A DNA stretch of 54,449 nt, taken from the NCBI GenBank assembly GCA_937958625.1, contig CALGNO010000183.1:1-54449 (forward strand). The letters run 5' to 3'. The stretch comes from an uncultured Neomegalonema sp. (lineage in GTDB: Bacteria; Pseudomonadota; Alphaproteobacteria; Rhodobacterales; Rhodobacteraceae). Shown here piece by piece: positions 3,560-33,051 of the stretch. Each line of letters begins with the position of its first letter. Positions within the stretch are counted from its first letter, which is position 1. The notes under the pieces were generated by a model that had not been told where the DNA came from, did not search any database, and saw only the letters and a list, made by a program, of their open reading frames with translations. Position numbers and translations under genes: made by a program.

Positions 3560-4903
3560 ATGACAGATCAGAAATCGCCGCCGAAAATCGGGATGGTCAG
3601 CCTTGGCTGCCCTAAAGCCCTCGTGGACTCCGAACGCATCCTGACCCGCCTGCGCGCCGAGGGCTATGCGTTCTCGACCGATTATGACGGGGCCGACGCG
3701 GTGGTCGTCAACACCTGCGGATTTCTCGACAGCGCCAAGGCCGAAAGCCTCGACGCCATCGGCGAGGCCCTGCGCGAGAACGGCAAGGTCATCGTCACCG
3801 GCTGCCTCGGGGCCGAGGCGGAGACGATCACCGCTGTTCATCCGTCTGTGGTCGCGATCACGGGGCCGCAGCAATACGAGCAGGTCATGGACGCGGTTCA
3901 CTCGGTTTCGCCGCCGCGCCCCGATCCATTCACAGACTTGCTGCCCGCCCCGCGTGACGGCGTGCGCCTGACGCCGCGTCATTATGCTTATCTAAAGATT
4001 TCAGAAGGCTGCAACCATTCTTGCCGCTTTTGCATCATCCCGGATATGCGCGGCAAGCTGGTCTCGCGCCCCGTCCATGCCGTCTTGCGTGAGGCAGAGC
4101 GGCTGGTCGAATCCGGGGTGAAGGAACTGCTGGTTATCAGTCAGGATACCTCGGCTTACGGTGTCGATCTGCGCGGCGACGCGCGCATCGGCAAGCCTTG
4201 GCGGGGCGAGAGCTATGATCCGACGATGCTCGACCTGTGTCGCGGCCTTGGCGAATTGGGGGTTTGGGTGCGCCTGCATTACGTTTATCCTTATCCCAGC
4301 GTCGATAAGGTCATTCCGTTGATGGCCGAGGGAAAGATTCTCCCCTATCTCGACATCCCGTTCCAGCACGCCTCGCCCAAGGTGTTGAAGGCCATGCGTC
4401 GGCCCGCAGACCACGAAAAGGTGCTGGACCGGATCAAGGCTTGGCGCGAAATCTGCCCGGATCTGACGATCCGCTCGACCTTCATCGTCGGGTTTCCCGG
4501 CGAGACCGAAGAAGACTTCCAGTTCCTGCTCGATTGGCTCAGCGAGGCGCGGCTCAACCGGGTCGGGTGTTTCAAATACGAGAATGTCGCCGGGGCGGCG
4601 GCGAATGACTTGCCAGACCATGTGCCGGAAGACGTCAAGCAAGACCGCTGGGAACGCTTCATGGCCCATATGCAGGTCATCAGCGCACAGCTTTTGGCAG
4701 AAAAGGTCGGTCGCCGCATGACGGTGATCGTGGACCAGATCGACGACGACGGCGCTGAATGCCGTTCCGCCGCCGATGCGCCGGAGATCGACGGCAATGT
4801 CTTTATCGATGAGGGGTTCGAAGACCTGGCCGTCGGCGATTTTGTCGAGGTCGAGATCGACGAGGCCAATGACTACGACCTCTGGGCGCATCGGGTGCGA
4901 TAG
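3560..4903 (+). CDS. rimO: Ribosomal protein uS12 methylthiotransferase
   Basis: RimO is a radical SAM enzyme that adds a methylthio group to an aspartate of ribosomal protein S12. The 447-residue product has all expected parts. The N-terminal UPF0004 domain carries three cluster-binding cysteines (C17 in SLGC, C53 in NTCGF, C82 in TGCLG). The radical SAM motif CNHSCRFC has C151, C155 and C158, and a TRAM-like RNA-binding tail lies after residue 375. [10 protein letters not shown] near the start and DIPFQHAS are RimO rather than MiaB signatures. It follows the glycosyltransferase by 42 bases and ends convergently with the DAHP synthase gene. Confidence 0.95.
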
Positions 4904-4923
4904 GATCACGCCATGGGCTGGTC

Positions 4924-4945
4924 ATGCTCGCGCTCGCGCGAGCAT
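4924..4945 (+). terminator. Hairpin after rimO
   Basis: ATGCTCGCG at 4924-4932 and CGCGAGCAT at 4937-4945 form a perfect 9-bp stem with a 4-base loop, followed by CTTTCTC. It lies 20 bases past the rimO stop in the convergent gap. The T-tract is weak, so it may be a 3'-end-protecting hairpin as much as an intrinsic terminator. Confidence 0.55.
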
Positions 4946-4959
4946 CTTTCTCAGCGTCG

Positions 4960-4987
4960 AAAAGGCCCTCGGGTCAGGCCCGAGGGC
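4960..4987 (-). terminator. Intrinsic terminator of the DAHP synthase gene
   Basis: A 9-bp GCCCTCGGG/CCCGAGGGC stem (4965-4973 with 4979-4987) with a 5-base loop is followed, on the minus strand, by CCTTTTC. It lies 8 bases past the stop of the leftward DAHP synthase gene. Confidence 0.75.
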
Positions 4988-4995
4988 GGTGGCAG

Positions 4996-6339
4996 TCAGA
5001 GCTTGTCCAGCTCATCCGCCAGCAGAAATGCGACCTCCAACGCCTGACTCGCGTTGAGACGCGGATCGCAGGCCGTGTGATAACGGTCTGAAAGATCGGC
5101 ATCCTTCAGATCTTGCAGGCCGCCAGTACACTCGGTTACGTCCTTGCCGGTCATCTCCAGATGCACACCGCCGGGATAGACACCCTCGGCGCGGCAAATC
5201 TCGGCATATTCCTTGATTTCAGTGAGGATCGACTGGAACGGGCGGGTCTTGTAGCCGCCCTCGGCCTTGATCGTGTTGCCGTGCATCGGATCACAGCACC
5301 AGACGACATTGTCGCCAGACTCCTTCACCGACTCGATTAGGCGCGGCAGATGATCGCCGACCTTGCCCGCCCCAAAACGACCAATCAGCGTAATGCGCCC
5401 TGCTTCATTATTCGGGTTAAGCTTGTCGAGCAGCACCTTGAGATCATCGGTTGTCATCGACGGCCCGCATTTGATGCCGAGGGGGTTCATGACGCCGCGG
5501 CAATATTCGACATGGGCACCGTCGGGCTGGCGCGTGCGGTCGCCGATCCACAGCATATGCGCGGACCCGGCCAGCATCTCGCCGGAGATCGAATCCTTGC
5601 GCGTCAGTGCCTCTTCGTAGGGTAGCAGCAGCGCCTCGTGCGAGGTGTAGTAATCAACCTGGGTCATAAGATGCGTGGTGTTGGAGTTGATCCCGCACGC
5701 ATCCATGAACTCAAGCGATCCGGCAATTTTCTCGGCCAGTTGCTTGTACTCGTTGGCGTTTTCGCCATCGGCAAAGTCGAGGTTCCAGGTCGCAACGCGA
5801 TGCAGGTCGGCATAGCCACCGGTCGCAAAGGCGCGAAGCAGGTTCAGCGTTGCCGCCGAGTGCAAATACGCCTCCAACATCTTTTCGGGCTTGGGCTGCC
5901 GTGCCTCGGGCGTGAAGGGCAGATCGTTGATGATGTCGCCGCGATAGCTGGGCAGCTCGACCCCGTCGATCGTCTCGGTCGGGGCCGAGCGCGGCTTGGC
6001 GAACTGGCCCGCCATGCGGCCAACCTTCACGACCGGCTTTTTCGCACCGAACGTGAGCACGATCGCCATTTGCAGCATCACGCGGAACGTGTCGCGGATA
6101 TTGTCGCTGGAAAACTCGGCAAAGCTCTCGGCGCAATCGCCCCCTTGCAGCAAGAACGTCTCGCCACGAGAGACAGCGGCCAGCCGTTGCTTGAGCGAGC
6201 GCGCCTCGCCTGCAAAAACGAGCAGCGGATAAGAGGACAGCTTGTCGGTTGCCGCCTTCAGCGCTGCTTCATCGGTGTATTCGGGCAGCTGCAAAGCGGT
6301 CCGGTTGCGCCAGCTATTCGCGCTCCAGTTCATCGTCAT
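4996..6339 (-). CDS. Class II 3-deoxy-7-phosphoheptulonate (DAHP) synthase
   Basis: DAHP synthase condenses phosphoenolpyruvate and erythrose 4-phosphate, the first step of the shikimate route to aromatic amino acids. The 447-residue product matches the plant-like class II family across its length: FAGEARSLKQRLAAVSRGE near the start, LLQGGDCAESFAEF with the metal-binding Cys, GRMAGQFAKPRS, and the C-terminal WCCDPMHGNT and GGVHLEMTG motifs. I chose the ATG at 6339 (MTMNWSANSW) because AGGA precedes it and the family starts here. An upstream in-frame ATG at 6408 would add 23 unlike residues. The gene is divergent from the DUF937 gene. Confidence 0.95.
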   Translation of the reverse strand: MTMNWSANSWRNRTALQLPEYTDEAALKAATDKLSSYPLLVFAGEARSLKQRLAAVSRGETFLLQGGDCAESFAEFSSDNIRDTFRVMLQMAIVLTFGAKKPVVKVGRMAGQFAKPRSAPTETIDGVELPSYRGDIINDLPFTPEARQPKPEKMLEAYLHSAATLNLLRAFATGGYADLHRVATWNLDFADGENANEYKQLAEKIAGSLEFMDACGINSNTTHLMTQVDYYTSHEALLLPYEEALTRKDSISGEMLAGSAHMLWIGDRTRQPDGAHVEYCRGVMNPLGIKCGPSMTTDDLKVLLDKLNPNNEAGRITLIGRFGAGKVGDHLPRLIESVKESGDNVVWCCDPMHGNTIKAEGGYKTRPFQSILTEIKEYAEICRAEGVYPGGVHLEMTGKDVTECTGGLQDLKDADLSDRYHTACDPRLNASQALEVAFLLADELDKL

Positions 6340-6479
6340 CGATCTATCCTGCGTTCGATGGGGGGTCTGAGCCGCGCTTATGGCGCAGGCCAGCGGTGGT
6401 GTCCACAACCGTCGTGAGTATCATTGAGATGCCGTGCCATCCGCGCTACGGTCGCAACAAGCAACCGATGAGGCCAGAC

Positions 6480-7304
6480 ATGAATATGCTCGATCTTTTG
6501 CGTTCCGCCCAGGGCGGCAGCGGCATCGAAAACCTTGCGCGGCAGTTTGGCCTCGGACGTGATGAAACCGAAGGTGTGTTGCGGCAAGTGCTGCCCGCCG
6601 TCTCGACCGGCTTCAAGCGAAAGACCCGGCAAGAGGGGGGGCTCGCCGGTATCCTGCGCGGTATTCAGGGCACGGATTACGAGGACGTCTATGACGATCC
6701 CAATGCCTTGCAGCGCGGTGACATCCGCGACCGCGGTGACCGGGTGCTGGCAGAGATTTTCGGCGATAAGGAAATCAGCCGCAACGTCGCCCGCCGCACG
6801 GAACAGCGTTCCGGTGTCGGTGCCGATGTGGTCAAGAATATGCTGCCCGTCATCACCTCGATGATCATGGGCGGGATGCAGAAACGCGCGACTGCCGATG
6901 CGGGCGTGAATAGCGGTGTCGGCGATTTGCTGACCGGTCTACTCGGCGGCGGAACCGCAAAACCGGCCTCCGGTGGCGGCGGTCTCGATGATATTATCGG
7001 CAGTGTCCTCGGCCATACCCGCGCCCCAACCCCGGCGCAGCGCGAGAGACCATCGGGTGGCCTCGGCGGTATCCTTGGGGGATTGCTGCGCGGTCGGCGT
7101 AAAGCGCCGCAACCACAGCCGAGGCAGGCTCAGCCGCGTGGCGATGGCCTTGACGATCTGCTCGGCGGTATCTTCGGCAAACAGCCTCGGCAACGCCAAA
7201 GCACCGGCGACCCGCGTCTCGATTCGGTTATCGGCATGTTCGACTCGAACGGCGACGGCGAGGTCGATATGGATGTTCTGCGCGAATTGTCCGGTAGGCG
7301 CTAG
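6480..7304 (+). CDS. DUF937 protein with a C-terminal EF-hand-like calcium loop
   Basis: The product is 274 residues from the ATG at 6480, which has GAGG six bases upstream. The N-terminal half (LARQFGLGRDETEGVLRQVL, then VVKNMLPVITSMIMGGMQK) fits the DUF937 family, helical proteins of unknown function. The middle is low-complexity, with repeated Gly-rich blocks (GVGDLLTGLLGGG, GGLGGILGGLLRG, GLDDLLGGIFGK) alternating with Arg/Gln/Pro-rich linkers, which suggests a short repeated amphipathic unit. The C terminus has DSNGDGEVD, a canonical EF-hand loop. No signal peptide is seen. Function is unknown; calcium binding is inferred from the loop alone. Confidence 0.75.
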   Translation: MNMLDLLRSAQGGSGIENLARQFGLGRDETEGVLRQVLPAVSTGFKRKTRQEGGLAGILRGIQGTDYEDVYDDPNALQRGDIRDRGDRVLAEIFGDKEISRNVARRTEQRSGVGADVVKNMLPVITSMIMGGMQKRATADAGVNSGVGDLLTGLLGGGTAKPASGGGGLDDIIGSVLGHTRAPTPAQRERPSGGLGGILGGLLRGRRKAPQPQPRQAQPRGDGLDDLLGGIFGKQPRQRQSTGDPRLDSVIGMFDSNGDGEVDMDVLRELSGRR

Positions 7305-7315
7305 GCCCCCGCCCC

Positions 7316-8764
7316 TCAGCGCCGCCAGAAATCGGGGGCGAGCATCACGAACACGCTCAACAGCTCTAGCCGCCCGATCAGCATCGCAATGATACAGGTC
7401 CATTTCGCAGAAACCGGCAAATCCTGATAGTTGCCGCTTGGCCCGATCACATCGCCAAGACCGGGGCCGACATTGCCCAGCGTCGCCGCCGCCGCCGACA
7501 ATGCCGTCAGAAAATCCAGCCCGATCAGGCTCAGGACCAGCGTCACGATGGCCAACGTGGCGTAGAACAGCATGAAAAACGCCATGACCGACGAGAGTAC
7601 TTGCTCTGAAATCGGCCTGCCGTCATACCGTGCGCGCATCACCGATGAGGGATTGTGAATGGCGCGGATCTGCGCCCTCACCGCCGCCGCGAGCACCTGA
7701 TAGCGGAATATCTTGACCGAACAACTCGTCGATCCGGCACAGCCACCGCACAGCGAAATCAGAAAGAAAACCGTCATCGAGAACGGTCCCCAAAGGCTGT
7801 AATCCTCCGTCGCGTAACCCGTGCCGGTGATGATCGAGACGGTGTTGAACAGCGCGCTGCGAAAGCTCGGCTCGACCTCCGTCGTCAAATCCCAGCGCAC
7901 CAGCGTCAGGACCAGAACGACCAACCCGACAACGGCAAAGAATGTCCGCACCTGCGGGTCTCGCAACAGAGGGCGGGCCGATCCGTTGAGCAACTGCACG
8001 AACCGTACATAGGGCAATGCCGAGGCCAACATGAAGAACGCGCCGAAATAGTGGATCATCGGTTGCTGGTAATGGCCCATGGAGGCATCGTAATTGGCCA
8101 ACCCGCCCGTCGCGATCGTCGTCATCGCATGGACCAACGCATCGAACGGCTCCATCCCCGACGCCGCATAGGCCAGCATAGCGGCCACGGTCAGGCCGAG
8201 ATAAATATAGCCAAGCTGCGCCGCGATCTCCGCCGCCCTCGGCAGGATTTTCCCAAAAGTATCGAACGCTTCGGAGCGGAACAGCTGCATCCCGCCGACC
8301 TGTAGCTGGGGCAGAATGGCGATGGCGACGACGACGATCCCGATGCCACCGATCCATTGCAGGATACCGCGCCAGAGCAGAATTCCCGCCGATGTCGTAT
8401 CCAGCCCCGAAAGCACCGTGGCCCCGGTCGTCGTAATCCCCGACATAGCCTCGAATATTCCGTCCGTCAGGCTGAGGGCCGTGCTTCCGAACATCAGCGG
8501 CATGGCCCCGAAGGCCGGTAACACGATCCAGGCCGCCGTCGTCAGGATGAATGTCTGCTGGATCGATAGCGCGCCGGTCCGGCGACCTCGGCATGTGAAA
8601 ACCATCCCGAGGCCGCAGACCAGCGTGATCACCGCGCTGAACAGAAAGGCGCGCCAGTCACTATCCGCCGACAACGCATCGGTAATGGCAACCGGCAGCA
8701 TCGCGACGCCGAGAACTGTGACGAACAGACCGATCACATAACCGATGGGGCGAATATCGAACAT
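7316..8764 (-). CDS. trkH: Potassium uptake protein TrkH family
   Basis: TrkH is the ion-conducting membrane subunit of the Trk potassium uptake system, which works with the cytoplasmic NAD-binding subunit TrkA. The 482-residue protein is hydrophobic throughout and carries the four pore-loop segments of the family, including ISGITTTGATVL, TTIATGGLANYDAS, SIITGTGYATEDYS and AAATLGNVGPGLG, each with the selectivity-filter glycine. Length matches TrkH (about 480). No trkA is adjacent, so the regulatory subunit must be encoded elsewhere. It converges on the DUF937 gene with an 11-base gap. Confidence 0.92.
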   Translation of the reverse strand: MFDIRPIGYVIGLFVTVLGVAMLPVAITDALSADSDWRAFLFSAVITLVCGLGMVFTCRGRRTGALSIQQTFILTTAAWIVLPAFGAMPLMFGSTALSLTDGIFEAMSGITTTGATVLSGLDTTSAGILLWRGILQWIGGIGIVVVAIAILPQLQVGGMQLFRSEAFDTFGKILPRAAEIAAQLGYIYLGLTVAAMLAYAASGMEPFDALVHAMTTIATGGLANYDASMGHYQQPMIHYFGAFFMLASALPYVRFVQLLNGSARPLLRDPQVRTFFAVVGLVVLVLTLVRWDLTTEVEPSFRSALFNTVSIITGTGYATEDYSLWGPFSMTVFFLISLCGGCAGSTSCSVKIFRYQVLAAAVRAQIRAIHNPSSVMRARYDGRPISEQVLSSVMAFFMLFYATLAIVTLVLSLIGLDFLTALSAAAATLGNVGPGLGDVIGPSGNYQDLPVSAKWTCIIAMLIGRLELLSVFVMLAPDFWRR

Positions 8765-8831
8765 TGATGGCAGCTTTCGCGCGGCCAGCCCGACCTGTCA
8801 ACGCGGCATCACTGGAACCAGCGACAACGTC

Positions 8832-9620
8832 TCACGAATGAGGCCCACTCCGGAACGGCGCGGCGAGGAGCGCGTGCAGGTCGTCGGCGCGCTCCTCCGG
8901 AAACTGCTTCAAGCCATAACGAAACGCCGCTGCAGAGCGTTTCGGCTCCGCCAGATAAGTCCCGAATAGCCGATCCCACAGCGCGAGATCATGCCCGTAA
9001 TTGGAGTCAGTCTCCGGGTGATAGTCTGAATGGTGAATATGGTGCAGAGCCGGGGTCATAATGTAGGATCGCAGAGACCGGTCGATACGTGCCGGAACGC
9101 GCATCCGCGAATGGTGCGCAAGGTCGATTACCAGAACCACAAACGCGTAAATCGTCACCGCCACCGCATCCAGTCCGAGGGCGACGATGGTCATCGCATG
9201 GAATATCGCGATGGCCGCGTACATCACGGGATGAACGCGGAATGTCGTCGTAATGTCGAGCGCCCGGTCGCTGTGATGGATCTTGTGAAACCGCCAGAGC
9301 ACCGGAACCTTGTGACAGGCGAGGTGTATGGCGTAATCGCGCAGGCTTAGCATGAGAAAGCTTGCAACAAAAACAACCGCATACGGCAAATCAACCAGCG
9401 ACAGCGCGCCATAGCCCGCCTCCTGCGACCAGTGAGCCGCCGCAATACCGCTGACCGGCACCGCCGCCGCCATCCCCGCCGATATAGCCACCAGAGCGGC
9501 ATTGGCGGGCCATCGACGGCGGGCACTATCGCGATCTGCCTCGTCGCCAAACCATAGTTCGATGCCCGCAATAACGAGCAAAAGGACGATCCAGTATCCG
9601 AGGGCGGTTTCAAGGGCCAT
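8832..9620 (-). CDS. Fatty acid hydroxylase / sterol desaturase family membrane protein
   Basis: This 262-residue membrane protein has the eight-histidine di-iron signature of the fatty acid hydroxylase superfamily: HLACH, HKIHH, a further DLAHHSR and HHIHH. Members hydroxylate or desaturate lipids at the membrane surface. The start is the ATG at 9620, which overlaps the stop of the upstream gene (TGATG), so the two are translationally coupled. It is the last gene of the exosortase operon. Whether its lipid substrate has anything to do with surface sorting is not known. Fatty acid or carotenoid hydroxylation are equally possible from sequence. Confidence 0.85.
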   Translation of the reverse strand: MALETALGYWIVLLLVIAGIELWFGDEADRDSARRRWPANAALVAISAGMAAAVPVSGIAAAHWSQEAGYGALSLVDLPYAVVFVASFLMLSLRDYAIHLACHKVPVLWRFHKIHHSDRALDITTTFRVHPVMYAAIAIFHAMTIVALGLDAVAVTIYAFVVLVIDLAHHSRMRVPARIDRSLRSYIMTPALHHIHHSDYHPETDSNYGHDLALWDRLFGTYLAEPKRSAAAFRYGLKQFPEERADDLHALLAAPFRSGPHS

Positions 9621-10147
9621 CAAAGCGCCCCACGACGTGGCTCATCGCGCCACACGGCGCTCCAATCGACGTCCGGTTCGGCGCAATCCTTCGGCCACAG
9701 AACGACGATCTGGTTCCGCACGCTCGACTCCGTGCCAATCCCCAGCGCCCCCATCAAGAGGTGCCGGCCCCAATGCAGCACGAGCGATGGCCGGGCCGAC
9801 GTCTCATAGCTGAAATCATGGAAAAAATAGCGATGGCTGTCGCCGCCCGTTGTCAATTCTTCGGTAAATGCCTTGGCGATCTTGGTGATGGGAAACTCGG
9901 CAACGGTCATATCCGCCGGGCATGTTCCATCCGAAAAACGAGAGCCAACGGTCGCCCTCAGGTCGTGGGGATCACCAATCTCGCCCACGATCTCGAAACC
10001 GCCTTCGGTCAGCACCCGTTCGATTGCGGCGGCCAGCGGTTGTCCCGTATTGGTTGAGGCATAGGCCTGCCGCGCCTCGTAGCGCAGCGTCGAGGCGACG
10101 ACGACAATGGCCAGCACCAGCATCCACCATCCCGTCAGGCGCGCCAT
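9620..10147 (-). CDS. One-TM protein of unknown function in the exosortase operon
   Basis: The 175-residue product starts at the ATG at 10147, overlapping the end of the exosortase gene by 13 bases. It has one N-terminal membrane segment (about residues 7-23, WWMLVLAIVVVAS) and a soluble, presumably periplasmic remainder with two cysteines (in DGTCPADM and PKDCAEPDV) that could pair. I do not recognise a domain. Many exosortases are encoded next to an EpsI-like (DUF3485) membrane-anchored partner of similar topology, and this could be a very divergent version, but no EpsI motif is convincing. Its position between exosortase and hydroxylase argues for an accessory role. Confidence 0.6.
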   Translation of the reverse strand: MARLTGWWMLVLAIVVVASTLRYEARQAYASTNTGQPLAAAIERVLTEGGFEIVGEIGDPHDLRATVGSRFSDGTCPADMTVAEFPITKIAKAFTEELTTGGDSHRYFFHDFSYETSARPSLVLHWGRHLLMGALGIGTESSVRNQIVVLWPKDCAEPDVDWSAVWRDEPRRGAL

Positions 10148-10962
10148 GGTTGCCTCGCACTTGGCAGGGAGACCATGGCAATCGCCGCAATCGCGATCAT
10201 CTGCGCCAGCCCAAACCATGCCGCGCCATCGCCGTGGTGCCAGAATTCGTAGGCATCGACGCTCGGCAGCATCATCCCGATCCGAACGGTGTTCATCAGG
10301 ATCAGGCACAGTGCCAACGCCAACAGCAAACCGATATCCCGTCTTGCGTAGCCGAGCCGAAAGAACGCCTTGAACGACGCATAGCCGAGAAACGCGAGGC
10401 TCAGGTTCGAGAATACCGAACATCCCCCGATCATCTGCAATCGCAAGCCATCCTCCAGTCGCAGACGCGCGCCATTCGTGGTCACGTCAAAGCCGACCAG
10501 GCCGGTGACGAATGCCACCAGGTCGACCTCGCCGACCAGAAACGCATCCTTGAACAGCATAAAAACCAGCGGCGCGACGAAGCCGTTCACGCCTAGGGCA
10601 AGATAAACAAGGCCGATATGTCGCCCGTCGGTGCGCGAAATCAGACCCGTGAGATAAGCAACCGCGAGGGGCAGGCAGAGCAAGGCGATGTCGAATCGCG
10701 TGCCGACAAGGCCACCCAGAACGGCGAAAACCACCACCGCGCCCAAGACACCGAAGTCTATCGCCTGGGATGGCTTGTCATCGCGCGTATCTGTCAAAAG
10801 ATGAAAAACGACCAGAAAGGCCACGATCACCAGTAAGCTGCCCGAGGCAATGCTGTTCAGCCAATCCTCGGGCGCCTTGACGGCAATCTTCGCGACAACG
10901 GTCTGGCTCAGAACAAAGAGCCAGAGCGCAAGGTGGACATGTCGCTGCGGAAGTGCCGTCAT
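10135..10962 (-). CDS. Divergent exosortase/archaeosortase-family protein
   Basis: Exosortases are multi-pass membrane cysteine proteases/transpeptidases that cut proteins carrying a short C-terminal motif, a TM helix and a basic tail. The 275-residue product has about eight hydrophobic segments and the family triad in order: Cys181 in GGCSVFSN, Arg227 in NTVRIG and His242/His243 in WHHGDG. The spacing and the following hydrophobic end fit the exosortase core. It is much shorter than EpsH-type exosortases fused to EpsI, and the usual CSG signature is CSV here, so it belongs to a minor branch. The 55-residue sorting-signal protein just upstream is its obvious candidate substrate. Confidence 0.75.
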   Translation of the reverse strand: MTALPQRHVHLALWLFVLSQTVVAKIAVKAPEDWLNSIASGSLLVIVAFLVVFHLLTDTRDDKPSQAIDFGVLGAVVVFAVLGGLVGTRFDIALLCLPLAVAYLTGLISRTDGRHIGLVYLALGVNGFVAPLVFMLFKDAFLVGEVDLVAFVTGLVGFDVTTNGARLRLEDGLRLQMIGGCSVFSNLSLAFLGYASFKAFFRLGYARRDIGLLLALALCLILMNTVRIGMMLPSVDAYEFWHHGDGAAWFGLAQMIAIAAIAMVSLPSARQPWRA

Positions 10963-10998
10963 AGAAATCAGTCCCGGCCCGATAAGGGCCAGCCGCCG

Positions 10999-11166
10999 TT
11001 ATTTACGGCGGCGCAGGACGCGGTATCCGACGTACCCTGCGACAACGACCGCGAGGCCAACGGGCCCGGCGGCACCGGCAATTGGCAAAGGCGCAGGCGC
11101 TCCAGAAAATGCCGGGGAAACAGCAAGTCCCGCGCTGATTGTGAGAAGTAAAGTTGAAAAACGCAT
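10999..11166 (-). CDS. 55-residue microprotein: signal peptide plus VPLPA-like sorting tail
   Basis: A start at 11166 follows AGGAA at good spacing, and the frame ends in TAA at 10999-11001. Residues 1-21 form a signal peptide (Arg at 2, Leu-rich core, then SPAFSG). After only a few residues comes APLPIAG, close to the VPLPA motif of roseobacter exosortase substrates, then a hydrophobic helix (about 32-48) and a basic end RVLRRRK. So nearly the whole protein is export and sorting signal, with a predicted mature peptide of only a few residues. It is 36 bases upstream of the exosortase gene on the same strand. It could be a substrate, a decoy or a regulator of the exosortase. Confidence 0.7.
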   Translation of the reverse strand: MRFSTLLLTISAGLAVSPAFSGAPAPLPIAGAAGPVGLAVVVAGYVGYRVLRRRK

Positions 11167-11310
11167 CGTATGTTCCTTTCTGGTCGATAATGAAATTGAA
11201 CGCTAAAATTGCAGACTTTCAGAGTCAATACCTTCAGGAAATCGCCAACGTCATCAAAATGCGACTGTTTCGGACTGGCGCATTGCTGCCATCTGCCCTA
11301 TCTTGTTGGG

Positions 11311-11478
11311 CGGCGGATCCTGGACTTCTCGTTATGGAGTCTGAACCCACTGGCCTTAAGCATCTCTGCGGGAGCTGTCCCTGCTCTGGACCGTGGTCCT
11401 AGGTATATGGCGCCCACCTGGTTTACCAGGCTCGCGGGGTTTCTAAACACTCCGACGGTTGCTCCGGGTCCGCCACTT
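11311..11478 (+). ncRNA. ssrS: 6S RNA
   Basis: The 16-base gap before fthC begins after a structured sequence with a long closing stem (GGCGGATCC at 11312-11320 with GGGTCCGCC at 11466-11474). Inside are a conserved-looking asymmetric bubble region (CCTTAAGCATCTCTGCGGGA) and an apical hairpin around CCTGGTTTACCAGG. Length about 165 bases, an open rod-like fold and position directly upstream of the 5-formyl-THF cyclo-ligase gene are the hallmarks of alphaproteobacterial 6S RNA. This RNA binds the sigma-70 RNA polymerase holoenzyme and mimics an open promoter in stationary phase. Ends are estimated from the closing stem. No convincing promoter was seen beyond TATCTT at 11299-11304. Confidence 0.75.
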
Positions 11479-30869: not shown

Positions 30870-31892
30870 ATGGCGAAACAACGCGGATTTTTCTCCTGGT
30901 GGACAGGCGAGTTGCGGGAGGTGTTCTCGGGCCGTCCCGTTCCCGTCCATGCGCTCGTAATGTCGTCGCATGAAGTTGCCCTGATCGAAAAGGGCGTCGA
31001 AGCGCCGCTGGGCGTGGTCGATCTGCAAGGCGAAGACTGGCGCGAGCAAATCGAAGGGCTGCGCTCGCGTATTCTCGGGCGGCGCGGAAAAAATCCGATA
31101 GTCGAGGTCCAGCTACCGCCGGAACAAGTGCTGTTTACCCGAATCGTCGTCGGGACAGAGACATCGAATGCCTCCAAAGTCGCTGAACAAGTCGGGATCG
31201 TCAGTGGCCAGTCCGTCGATACGCTCAGCTATGACGTCGCCGCCAAACCCGATCCCGATGGCAGCGCCGTGGTCGCAATCGCACTGAATACGACCGTTGC
31301 CGAGGCGGCACGCTATGCCGATGCGTGGGGATTCGGTGCGGTACGGATCACCAGTATGGAGGCTCCAGCCGCCTTTCCTCGTGGTCCCGATTTCGATCAC
31401 CATGCGTCCCGCGCTGCCGGTTCGGTCTTGCCGAAAGTCGTGCTGGCGGCTGCAGCGGTGGCTGTTCTGCTCGCCGCCGTCGCGGGCGGGCGTATTCTTA
31501 GCCAGCGCGCCGACGTTACCGCGCAAGCGCAGGCCGATGCCGCCGCCCTGCCCGCTGCAACGGAAGACTTGCAGACCAAGCAACTCGAACTCGTCGAATT
31601 TGCCCATGCTGCCGCGACCGCAACCGACCTGCGCGACACAAGAATGCCGGTCTGGCGTATCCTGGCCGAAGCCGCGTCGATCATTCCGTCGGATACGATC
31701 ATAGACAATTTCGACTATCGCACGGGTCAGGTCACGTTGCGGGGCACCACCGCGTCGACCGTGGCGCTGGAGGAATCGCTGGACCGCTCGCCGGTTTTCA
31801 GCGCGCCCAGCCTGTCCGGCACCAGCCGATCCAGCACGGGACGCGCGAATTTCGTTATCGAGGCGACGATCGACGAACGGAACGTGCGATGA
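30870..31892 (+). CDS. GspL/PilN-like inner-membrane assembly protein
   Basis: The 340-residue product has an N-terminal actin-like (ASKHA) cytoplasmic domain fragment (VALIEKGVEAPLGVVDLQ, IVEVQLPPEQVLFTRIVVG), one membrane helix (about 187-210, LPKVVLAAAAVAVLLAAVAG), a coiled-coil-like stretch, and a periplasmic ferredoxin-like PilN/GspL_C domain (MPVWRILAEAASIIPSDTIIDNFDYRTGQVTLRG). GspL anchors the cytoplasmic ATPase GspE to the type II secretion inner-membrane platform. The N-terminal domain is shorter than in classic GspL. It overlaps the next gene by ATGA and leads a three-gene operon. Confidence 0.75.
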   Translation: MAKQRGFFSWWTGELREVFSGRPVPVHALVMSSHEVALIEKGVEAPLGVVDLQGEDWREQIEGLRSRILGRRGKNPIVEVQLPPEQVLFTRIVVGTETSNASKVAEQVGIVSGQSVDTLSYDVAAKPDPDGSAVVAIALNTTVAEAARYADAWGFGAVRITSMEAPAAFPRGPDFDHHASRAAGSVLPKVVLAAAAVAVLLAAVAGGRILSQRADVTAQAQADAAALPAATEDLQTKQLELVEFAHAAATATDLRDTRMPVWRILAEAASIIPSDTIIDNFDYRTGQVTLRGTTASTVALEESLDRSPVFSAPSLSGTSRSSTGRANFVIEATIDERNVR

Positions 31893-32440
31893 GTGCCGGG
31901 GGCCGCAGTCGCACGGCGGCAATCGTGTTGCTGCTCGGCGTCATTGCGGTTGCCTTGGCCGCGATGGTCGTGCCGATTGCCCTCTATTGGTCCAATACCG
32001 GCAAGGCCATCAACGAGGCTCGGGCAGCGATACAGCAGGCCGAGGAGAGGCAATCGTCAAGCCTTGCGGCGGATGACGCCCGGCAACGCTGGACACGCTT
32101 TGTCGGCACCCCTGCATCGCGGTTCGTGCTTGCGGATACCGATGAGGCCGCGGCTGACATACTGGAGGGACGTCTGGCGCGGCTGTTCAGCGAGTTGAAC
32201 GGCGACGCCGGGTCTATCGAGGTCGAGGCGAGCGAAGGCCCACGCGCCGGGGTCATTGCCCTGAAGGTCGAGGCCAGCGGCACGCTTGCCAAGTCGTCCC
32301 TTGGGTCATTTTTGACAGCGCTGGAGAGCGGCGAACAGGTCGTAATCCTCAGCCGATTTTCCGCGCGCAGCATAGACCGCAATCGTCTGCGCGTCAGCCT
32401 TGGTGGCACGGCATATCGTATGGGAGAGCCGGGAATATGA
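31889..32440 (+). CDS. GspM-like membrane protein
   Basis: The 183-residue product has one N-terminal membrane helix (AIVLLLGVIAVALAAMVVP), then a helical region (GKAINEARAAIQQAEERQ) and a small periplasmic alpha/beta domain (VIALKVEASGTLAKSSLGSFLTALESGEQVVILSRFSAR) typical of GspM/PilO. GspM binds GspL in the type II secretion platform. It overlaps the GspL-like gene upstream and the GspC-like gene downstream by ATGA each. Sequence similarity is low, so the call rests on topology, fold pattern and operon order. Confidence 0.7.
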   Translation: MSAGGRSRTAAIVLLLGVIAVALAAMVVPIALYWSNTGKAINEARAAIQQAEERQSSSLAADDARQRWTRFVGTPASRFVLADTDEAAADILEGRLARLFSELNGDAGSIEVEASEGPRAGVIALKVEASGTLAKSSLGSFLTALESGEQVVILSRFSARSIDRNRLRVSLGGTAYRMGEPGI

Positions 32441-33051
32441 AAAAGGACGCTTGGTATGCGGCACTCGCCGCCATTGGTCTGTGCGCGCTGACCGCTGGCT
32501 ATGGCGTGGTGTCGGCGAGCGACATTGCCGATCCCGGCCAAGACACGCGCCGTGCGCCGCTGAAGGCGTCTTTGCCGATGCCTCCCGCGCCGGATAGGGA
32601 CCGACCAACCGAAGCCGCCGCCGTGGCGATTCTGGAGGGACGCAACCCGTTTCTTCCGCGCGAGTCTGACGCAGAACTGGCGCGGCGGGGTCTCAACCTG
32701 CCGAAACTGGCACCCCCAGTTCGCTTTTCGCAGCCGGGAGATCGCACCACTGTAACCGCTGTAGACTCGCCATCGCGAACCGCCGCCGCCGCGCCGCCGC
32801 AACCGTCGCGGGCGGTCTCCGAGGCCCCGGTATCGCCCGCACCGGCCCCGCAAAGTCAGGGCAGCCTGACCCTACGCGGTGTCTTTCCATCCCCGAATGG
32901 CGGGCGAGCGCTGGTCGCCTTACCCGATGGCAAGGTCATGAGCGTTGGTGTCGGTGGGGTCGTCGGCGGCTGGCGCGTGCTTGGCATCGAGCAAGGCGCA
33001 ATCCGCATCGGGCGCGGCCAGCGCAAGATCCTGCTCTCGATGCCACGCTGA
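32437..33051 (+). CDS. GspC/PilP-like protein
   Basis: The 204-residue product has an N-terminal membrane helix (about 7-25), a Pro/Ala-rich linker (PSRAVSEAPVSPAPAPQSQ) and a small C-terminal beta domain (LTLRGVFPSPNGGRALVALPDGKVMSVGVGG, WRVLGIEQGAIRI). This is the layout of the GspC homology region or PilP, which joins the inner platform to the outer-membrane secretin. No secretin, pseudopilin or ATPase gene follows; the operon ends and mgtE converges 7 bases beyond the stop. Confidence 0.65.
   Translation: MKKDAWYAALAAIGLCALTAGYGVVSASDIADPGQDTRRAPLKASLPMPPAPDRDRPTEAAAVAILEGRNPFLPRESDAELARRGLNLPKLAPPVRFSQPGDRTTVTAVDSPSRTAAAAPPQPSRAVSEAPVSPAPAPQSQGSLTLRGVFPSPNGGRALVALPDGKVMSVGVGGVVGGWRVLGIEQGAIRIGRGQRKILLSMPR

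Follow-up and report, generated by a model that had tools for sequence, protein, structure and literature searches.

We report a compact four-gene cassette built around a divergent exosortase in a stretch of 54,449 nucleotides from an uncultured Neomegalonema sp. (Rhodobacteraceae; GenBank assembly GCA_937958625.1, contig CALGNO010000183.1). This whole stretch is hereafter called the window. On its minus strand, at 8832-11166, four open reading frames in about 2.5 kb encode a microprotein (MP), the exosortase, an accessory protein of 175 residues (P175) and a fatty-acid-hydroxylase family enzyme (FAH). The complete set is found in seven of seven cassette loci and is present or absent as a unit. 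The explanation that we favour, with a probability of about one in two, is that the four genes together encode a dedicated exosortase system, in which the passenger-free MP would be trimmed, its peptide passed to a lipid, and this lipid acted upon by FAH. The features are as follows.

10999..11166, minus strand: MP, microprotein of 55 amino acids and candidate substrate, with signal peptide, about 12 residues, Pro/Gly motif, transmembrane stretch and basic tail (alignment and codon-position bias).
11104..11166, minus strand: residues 1-21 of MP, probably its signal peptide (by eye, from the alignment).
11068..11103, minus strand: residues 22-33 of MP, a proline-rich stretch of 12 residues that runs from the likely signal-peptidase site to GPVG (by eye).
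11002..11097, minus strand: sorting-type C-terminus of MP, residues 24-55, with P.P..G..GPVG, transmembrane stretch, YVGYR and RRRK (10-row alignment).
10135..10962, minus strand: divergent exosortase, 275 amino acids, with Cys181, Asn224-x-x-Arg227 and His242-x-x-x-Gly246 (alignments, hhalign, AlphaFold2 and tree).
9620..10147, minus strand: accessory P175, 175 amino acids, N-terminal helix and predicted alpha/beta domain, with Cys76 and Cys155 (alignment and model).
8832..9620, minus strand: FAH, fatty-acid-hydroxylase family enzyme (PF04116 match; a TTG start at 9623 is also possible).
8806..11294, no strand: the whole cassette, present or absent as a unit, lying between trkH and the 6S RNA/5-formyltetrahydrofolate cyclo-ligase (5-FCL) end (homology limits against the cassette-free genomes G004 and G007).

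An earlier note on this DNA, made from the sequence alone, had placed the four reading frames correctly and on the correct strand. It had also described overlapping ends, which hold for the exosortase and P175 (13 bp) and for P175 and FAH (1-4 bp), but not for MP and the exosortase, which are separated by 36 bp. The start of FAH is either the TTG at 9623 or, more likely, the ATG at 9620, which overlaps the stop codon of P175 (TGATG).

We searched for the exosortase protein in 61 genomes (its own and 60 relatives) and found it in four, all from the genus of the window (4 of 14 genomes there). Patterns taken from the exosortase alignment identified six loci on named genome contigs: three uncultured Neomegalonema contigs, a Pseudooceanicola metagenome-assembled genome (MAG; 44% identity), Sulfitobacter sp. 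CW3 (46%) and an uncultured Roseovarius MAG (26%). Although these six were found by the exosortase alone, MP, exosortase, P175 and FAH occur together in all seven loci, across four named genera, and each protein has homologs in all seven. P175 and FAH thus adjoin the exosortase in all seven loci, the association that the earlier note had proposed as its test. Gene order is MP-exosortase-P175-FAH in six loci; the seventh (L101) has FAH first and keeps all four genes. The proposal of a single dedicated substrate holds in part: five loci encode one MP, but L101 and L102 each encode two in tandem. L050, an eighth relative, also combines a passenger-free MP with an exosortase, but its contig breaks off within the gene for the accessory protein, and FAH therefore cannot be assessed there.

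The cassette behaves as a unit of presence and absence. It is flanked by trkH and the 5-FCL gene (named by eye), which are 2729 bp apart in the window and only 286, 288, 268 and 287 bp apart in G004, G007, G011 and G012, respectively. The empty site was examined as aligned DNA in G004 and G007 and from coordinates only in G011 and G012. Homology between the window and G007 stops at 11312 on one side of the cassette and at 8804 on the other; for G004 the two limits are 11295 and 8805. The variable part thus begins some 27 bp past the end of FAH and 130-146 bp ahead of MP. G012 combines the short spacer with a cassette that lies on a different contig. Eight genus genomes were uninformative for the site, with trkH and 5-FCL on different contigs or, in G010, no trkH match; G013 had no 5-FCL match. 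Between the cassette and the 5-FCL gene lies a 6S RNA (RF00013) at 11314-11474 (+), which scored 46.4 bits, at the gathering score, and was not listed by the whole-window gathering search. In L006, the genes adjoining the cassette (8688-11070) resemble, by eye, type II secretion-like genes at 30870-33051 of the window. Hence, the cassette seems to occupy different places in congeners.

The sequence of the exosortase places it in the exosortase/archaeosortase superfamily, both by its Cys, Arg and His residues and by detectable homology. Among 19 exosortases (four from the genus of the window and 15 from the more distant loci described below), the sole invariant columns are Cys181, Asn224, Arg227, His242 and Gly246. 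Cys181, Arg227 and His242 are also invariant in the seven cassette exosortases. The catalytic residues named in the earlier note are therefore conserved, except that it had offered position 243 beside His242, and this position is variable (Glu in two of the seven cassettes). The N-x-x-R and H-x-x-x-G motifs are as in EpsH. When the 19 rows were compared by hhalign with nine XrtA-type rows, the match reached 92.9% (E = 3.6e-7) with the catalytic motifs aligned. The word divergent was apt, since the window protein lies below every Pfam and NCBIfam exosortase cut-off: it has no PF09721 match, scores 8.8 bits against a cut-off of 23 with TIGR04178, and its best NCBIfam match, cyanoexosortase A (E = 1.1e-5), reaches 25.1 bits against a cut-off of 150. 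Across the 19 members, NCBIfam matches at E <= 0.01 were to TIGR04178 (7), CrtA (4), CrtC (2), ArtE (2), ArtD (1) and XrtX (1).

Of the named Xrt branches suggested for a tree, XrtA alone was included. In this 31-row tree, a branch separates the seven cassette exosortases from the XrtA rows (support 100/99), and a weaker one sets them apart among all rows (88/78); together with L050 they form one group (98/96). For the window protein, assignment to XrtA or another named branch is ruled out by the NCBIfam and Pfam cut-offs together with this tree. The Neomegalonema exosortase of L101 (L008) clusters with its counterpart from Roseovarius L102 (100/99), which could reflect either transfer between genera or an old duplication followed by loss. 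An AlphaFold2 model from seven sequences (predicted local distance difference test, pLDDT, 80.6; predicted template modelling score 0.75) has nine helices of at least 15 residues, with Cys181, Arg227 and His242 near helix ends along the sequence. A fold search of the PDB with the exosortase and P175 models returned nothing at E <= 0.001, and a sequence search of solved structures with the exosortases returned two designed proteins only (E ~0.03). The same genome encodes a separate PF09721 exosortase at L053 (G000:C76), 4833-6416 (-), in a 527-residue frame with a probably EpsI-like C-terminal part; it sits among genes resembling exopolysaccharide synthesis (by eye), and C76 gave the only PF09721 match in this genome.

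Ten aligned MP rows share a PEP-CTERM-like architecture of signal peptide, motif, transmembrane stretch and basic tail (by eye). All begin like a signal peptide. In line with the usual rule for signal-peptidase sites, AxA precedes the expected cut in eight rows and a small residue occupies -1 in all ten (by eye). Only 12 to 16 residues separate this cut from GP[VWI]G (by eye), and the proteins end in the transmembrane stretch, Y.[GA]Y[RL] and a basic tail (patterns by eye). P26, P28, G31, G34, P35, G37, Y45 and Y48 are invariant. This bears out the description of a protein made of signal and sorting parts only, and judging from its sequence residues 22-33 are the only possible passenger. The MP of the window matched no NCBIfam family, the PEP-CTERM model included, and only sub-cut-off Pfam entries (DUF202, E = 0.0027; DUF3188, E = 0.093). 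Codon differences are more frequent at third positions than at first or second ones in all ten pairs of the five rows compared. Since this bias comes together with homologs in all seven loci, MP is more than a chance reading frame, and that candidate explanation was ruled out.

In the genomes searched, strong MP matches lay only beside such exosortases. A profile run on eight genomes (the seven and G191, which holds L050) gave ten strong matches (E <= 1.7e-21), all beside the exosortase, the next best having E = 0.005 and 0.06. A first profile had given strong matches in the 14 genus genomes at the four exosortase loci only (five copies); the next best (E = 0.0086) contained a stop. Among 394 family genomes, with at most 16 candidates scored per genome, MP was found at E <= 1e-6 in two, the window and G191, both times beside such an exosortase.

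P175, a protein with one transmembrane segment, matched no Pfam or NCBIfam family, as the earlier note had anticipated in calling it a protein without a known domain. In its model (pLDDT 80.3), a long helix at the N-terminus is followed by a predicted alpha/beta domain. Cys76 and Cys155 are invariant in the 17 aligned accessory rows, which cover the seven cassettes and 10 of the 15 distant loci (L050, which is cut, L052, L072, L074 and L077 were left out); the accessory of L074 lacks the first Cys (by eye). NCBIfam gave one chance-like match on the 17 accessories, and no cyanoexosortase associated-protein model fits. EpsI was rejected as an identity for P175, hhalign giving 0.2% against nine EpsI-type domains. 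Pairwise distances of P175 and exosortase agree across the seven loci (r = 0.90; 10 of 5040 permutations as high), and so do those of FAH and exosortase (r = 0.88; 96 of 5040). This agreement counts in favour of a dedicated exosortase system, and on the whole the reading given in the earlier note is supported.

We propose the following sequence of events. MP would be exported and lose its signal peptide; what remains would be some 12 residues in the periplasm, followed by a Pro/Gly recognition motif, a transmembrane anchor and a basic tail. The exosortase, through Cys181, Arg227 and His242, would cut at or near P.P..G..GP.G and free the transmembrane tail, and the short proline-rich peptide, held as a thioester on the Cys, would then be transferred to an acceptor. 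The example of archaeosortase A makes a membrane lipid the probable acceptor. FAH would hydroxylate the acceptor lipid or the finished product, and P175 would be a partner of the exosortase that places substrate or acceptor. Three published accounts point this way: the cut near the target motif via a Cys intermediate proposed for exosortases (PMC1569441), the lipidation reported for archaeosortase (PMC7157517), and the OlsE homologs reported in some roseobacters (PMC11631085). From them we infer that the cassette may produce a short peptide linked to a lipid, on which FAH would act. The part given to FAH draws on its enzyme family and on the archaeosortase precedent, and extends the possible lipid modification raised in the earlier note.

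Several observations weigh against this proposal. Almost no protein is left after both cuts, so MP may not be a usual sorting substrate. The MP profiles were built from the copies that they then matched, and they therefore show absence elsewhere rather than discovery. The Cys motif is C-S-V or C-S-A in the seven cassettes, without the Gly of the EpsH C-x-G. The P175 profile matches only 2 of the 15 distant accessories (L068, E = 4e-5; L069, E = 8e-6). FAH was not matched at any of the 15 distant loci within the locus DNA examined, some of it short (4931 bp for L067; contigs of about 9-12 kb for L051 and L052), which implies that the wider exosortase branch does not need FAH. OlsE (NF052566), the closest named NCBIfam model of FAH, is ruled out as its identity (74.3 bits against a cut-off of 475), and cassette FAHs are separated from their paralogs by a weak tree branch only (80/12). 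The agreement of distances between exosortase, P175 and FAH may partly reflect shared descent.

Part of this evidence concerns FAH, and the exosortase, accessory and MP could form the system by themselves, with FAH an independent lipid enzyme that happens to share their transcript. The hydroxylase family given in the earlier note is confirmed (PF04116, E = 6.2e-23; 82.1 bits, cut-off 31), and histidines 100, 104, 113, 116, 117, 194, 197 and 198, presumably metal ligands, are invariant in the seven loci; a sequence search of solved structures with FAH gave no match. We built a profile from the four cassette FAHs, which therefore favours them. It scored them at 441-470 bits, confined to the four cassette genomes among the 14 of the genus, and revealed in 12 of the 14 a paralog that scored about 200 bits, two genomes having further matches at about 80. 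The family thus has independent uses, which, like the absence of FAH from the distant loci, fits a separate enzyme. Yet FAH is kept in all seven loci, across one change of gene order, and it lies inside the presence/absence unit, whose end is only about 27 bp beyond it. We regard a merely co-transcribed FAH as rather unlikely.

A ribosomal lipopeptide pathway is another explanation, and one that we find doubtful. MP would be the precursor, with the signal peptide as leader and the transmembrane tail as follower, and the exosortase would join the proline-rich core (about 10-16 residues) to a lipid modified by FAH. The product would be a short lipid-linked peptide and not a surface protein.

MP could also serve the exosortase as a small membrane subunit or as a regulator, and the real targets would then be encoded elsewhere in the genome with a signal too degenerate to find. 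The near absence of a passenger and the well-conserved transmembrane end (Y.GYR) speak for this, and the more distant exosortases provide a comparison. A profile of the exosortase matched 17 of 394 family genomes: the window, three stand-alone relatives (L050-L052) and 13 others with open frames of 533-624 residues and weak E-values, which are most likely XrtA-EpsI fusions. It also matched 2 of 292 genomes of the order and 11 of 385 of the class (12 matches), the window included in both. In total, these searches provided 15 more distant loci. All have a short, comparable protein downstream of the exosortase (by eye), and several have exopolysaccharide-type genes (by eye). A neighbouring target was not recognised in five (L068, L070, L071, L072 and L076), as expected if targets lie elsewhere. 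However, a protein with a three-part sorting-type tail adjoins the other ten, six recognised by a simple filter (L050, L052, L067, L069, L075 and L077) and four by eye (L051, L073, L074 and L078), one of them 345 residues long, and a start like that of a signal peptide is found in all ten MP rows. The filter also returned seven matches that did not resemble a target and were set aside (window, L006, L007, L052, L071, L077 and L078). We consider a subunit or regulator improbable.

At the distant loci, the MP profile reached E = 3.5e-8 at L050, 0.0015 at L067 and 0.003 at L069; the L069 protein is on the other strand and lacks a signal peptide by the filter. Of ten related proteins, that of L073 alone scores above a model cut-off (LPXTG_anchor, 18.5 against 15.9), while for PEP_CTERM it stays at 12.9 against 16. 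At L074, the 345-residue protein (5731-6768, -) has an APAPP-transmembrane-basic tail beside a related exosortase and is a possible target with a real passenger. At L075, two proteins with the same VPGPLEGVGLP tail motif flank one exosortase, at 5291-5596 (+) and 7400-7789 (-). The exosortases of L051, L052 and L078 form a supported group (100/99), and these loci share a small downstream protein with an NC[NK]ASF pattern and an AP..xLG-type motif before a transmembrane stretch (by eye).

Finally, a drifting or selfish unit without a fixed host role, kept by transfer, would account for the patchy distribution (4 of 14 genus genomes, with an empty site in congeners) and for the grouping of L101 with L102, but is very unlikely given the intact catalytic residues and the absence of a mobility gene among the four genes. 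The cassette G+C content (0.603 against 0.613 in the window) is not unusual and gives no sign of foreign origin. In the two short stretches compared at the cassette ends, the longest inverted word was 9 bp and no direct word of at least 8 bp was found. A tblastn search of plasmids with the L100 and L102 exosortases gave no match, the window protein, phages and viral contigs lying outside this search.

To our knowledge, the acceptor of bacterial exosortase targets is an open question. An enzyme, an accessory, a tiny putative substrate and a lipid-type enzyme within 2.5 kb, together with relatives that naturally lack the cassette and with Sulfitobacter sp. CW3 as a named strain, make it directly testable, and a substrate that keeps about a dozen residues would be easily followed by mass spectrometry. 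In the open-licence literature we found no paper on an exosortase together with a fatty acid hydroxylase. Searches there for exosortase, hydroxylase and lipid gave none that, judged by its title and the opening of its abstract, deals with such a system; those for exosortase and PEP-CTERM gave none on the four-gene set by title, and those for roseobacters none with the word exosortase, in both cases among the matches listed.

Among known systems, the cassette shares features with EpsH/XrtA and its PEP-CTERM targets as described by Haft 2006 (PMC1569441). That account gives EpsH the motifs C-x-G, N-x-x-R and H-x-x-x-G, with the Cys, Asn-x-x-Arg and His-x-x-x-Gly residues that are invariant here, targets with signal peptide, motif, transmembrane helix and basic tail, and a further protein (EpsI) encoded directly downstream or fused. 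In contrast, the cassette has C-S-V/A for C-x-G, an accessory unlike EpsI, FAH, and one or two candidate targets without PEP motif or passenger, and exopolysaccharide genes were not recognised beside it within the window. Among cyanoexosortases A, B and C, the first is the best NCBIfam match of the exosortase, and cyanoexosortase B is reported to have an associated protein encoded just downstream (PMC12188702); the score is far below the cut-off, however, and the accessory matches no associated-protein model. OlsE is an ornithine-lipid hydroxylase and the nearest named model of FAH, which falls well short of its cut-off. Dedicated sorting systems, as reported in PMC3237569, also place an enzyme next to its only target, whereas the candidate target here is virtually without passenger and the unit includes a hydroxylase-family enzyme. 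In archaeosortase A, substrate cleavage and lipidation are reported to need PssA and PssD homologs, encoded by adjacent genes in Methanosarcina (PMC7157517), so that processing depends on enzymes of lipid metabolism. There, these enzymes are homologs of a serine-headgroup synthase and a decarboxylase and the named substrate is the S-layer glycoprotein, whereas the cassette encodes a hydroxylase-family enzyme; in that system, it was the lipid enzymes encoded nearby that gave the clue to the acceptor.

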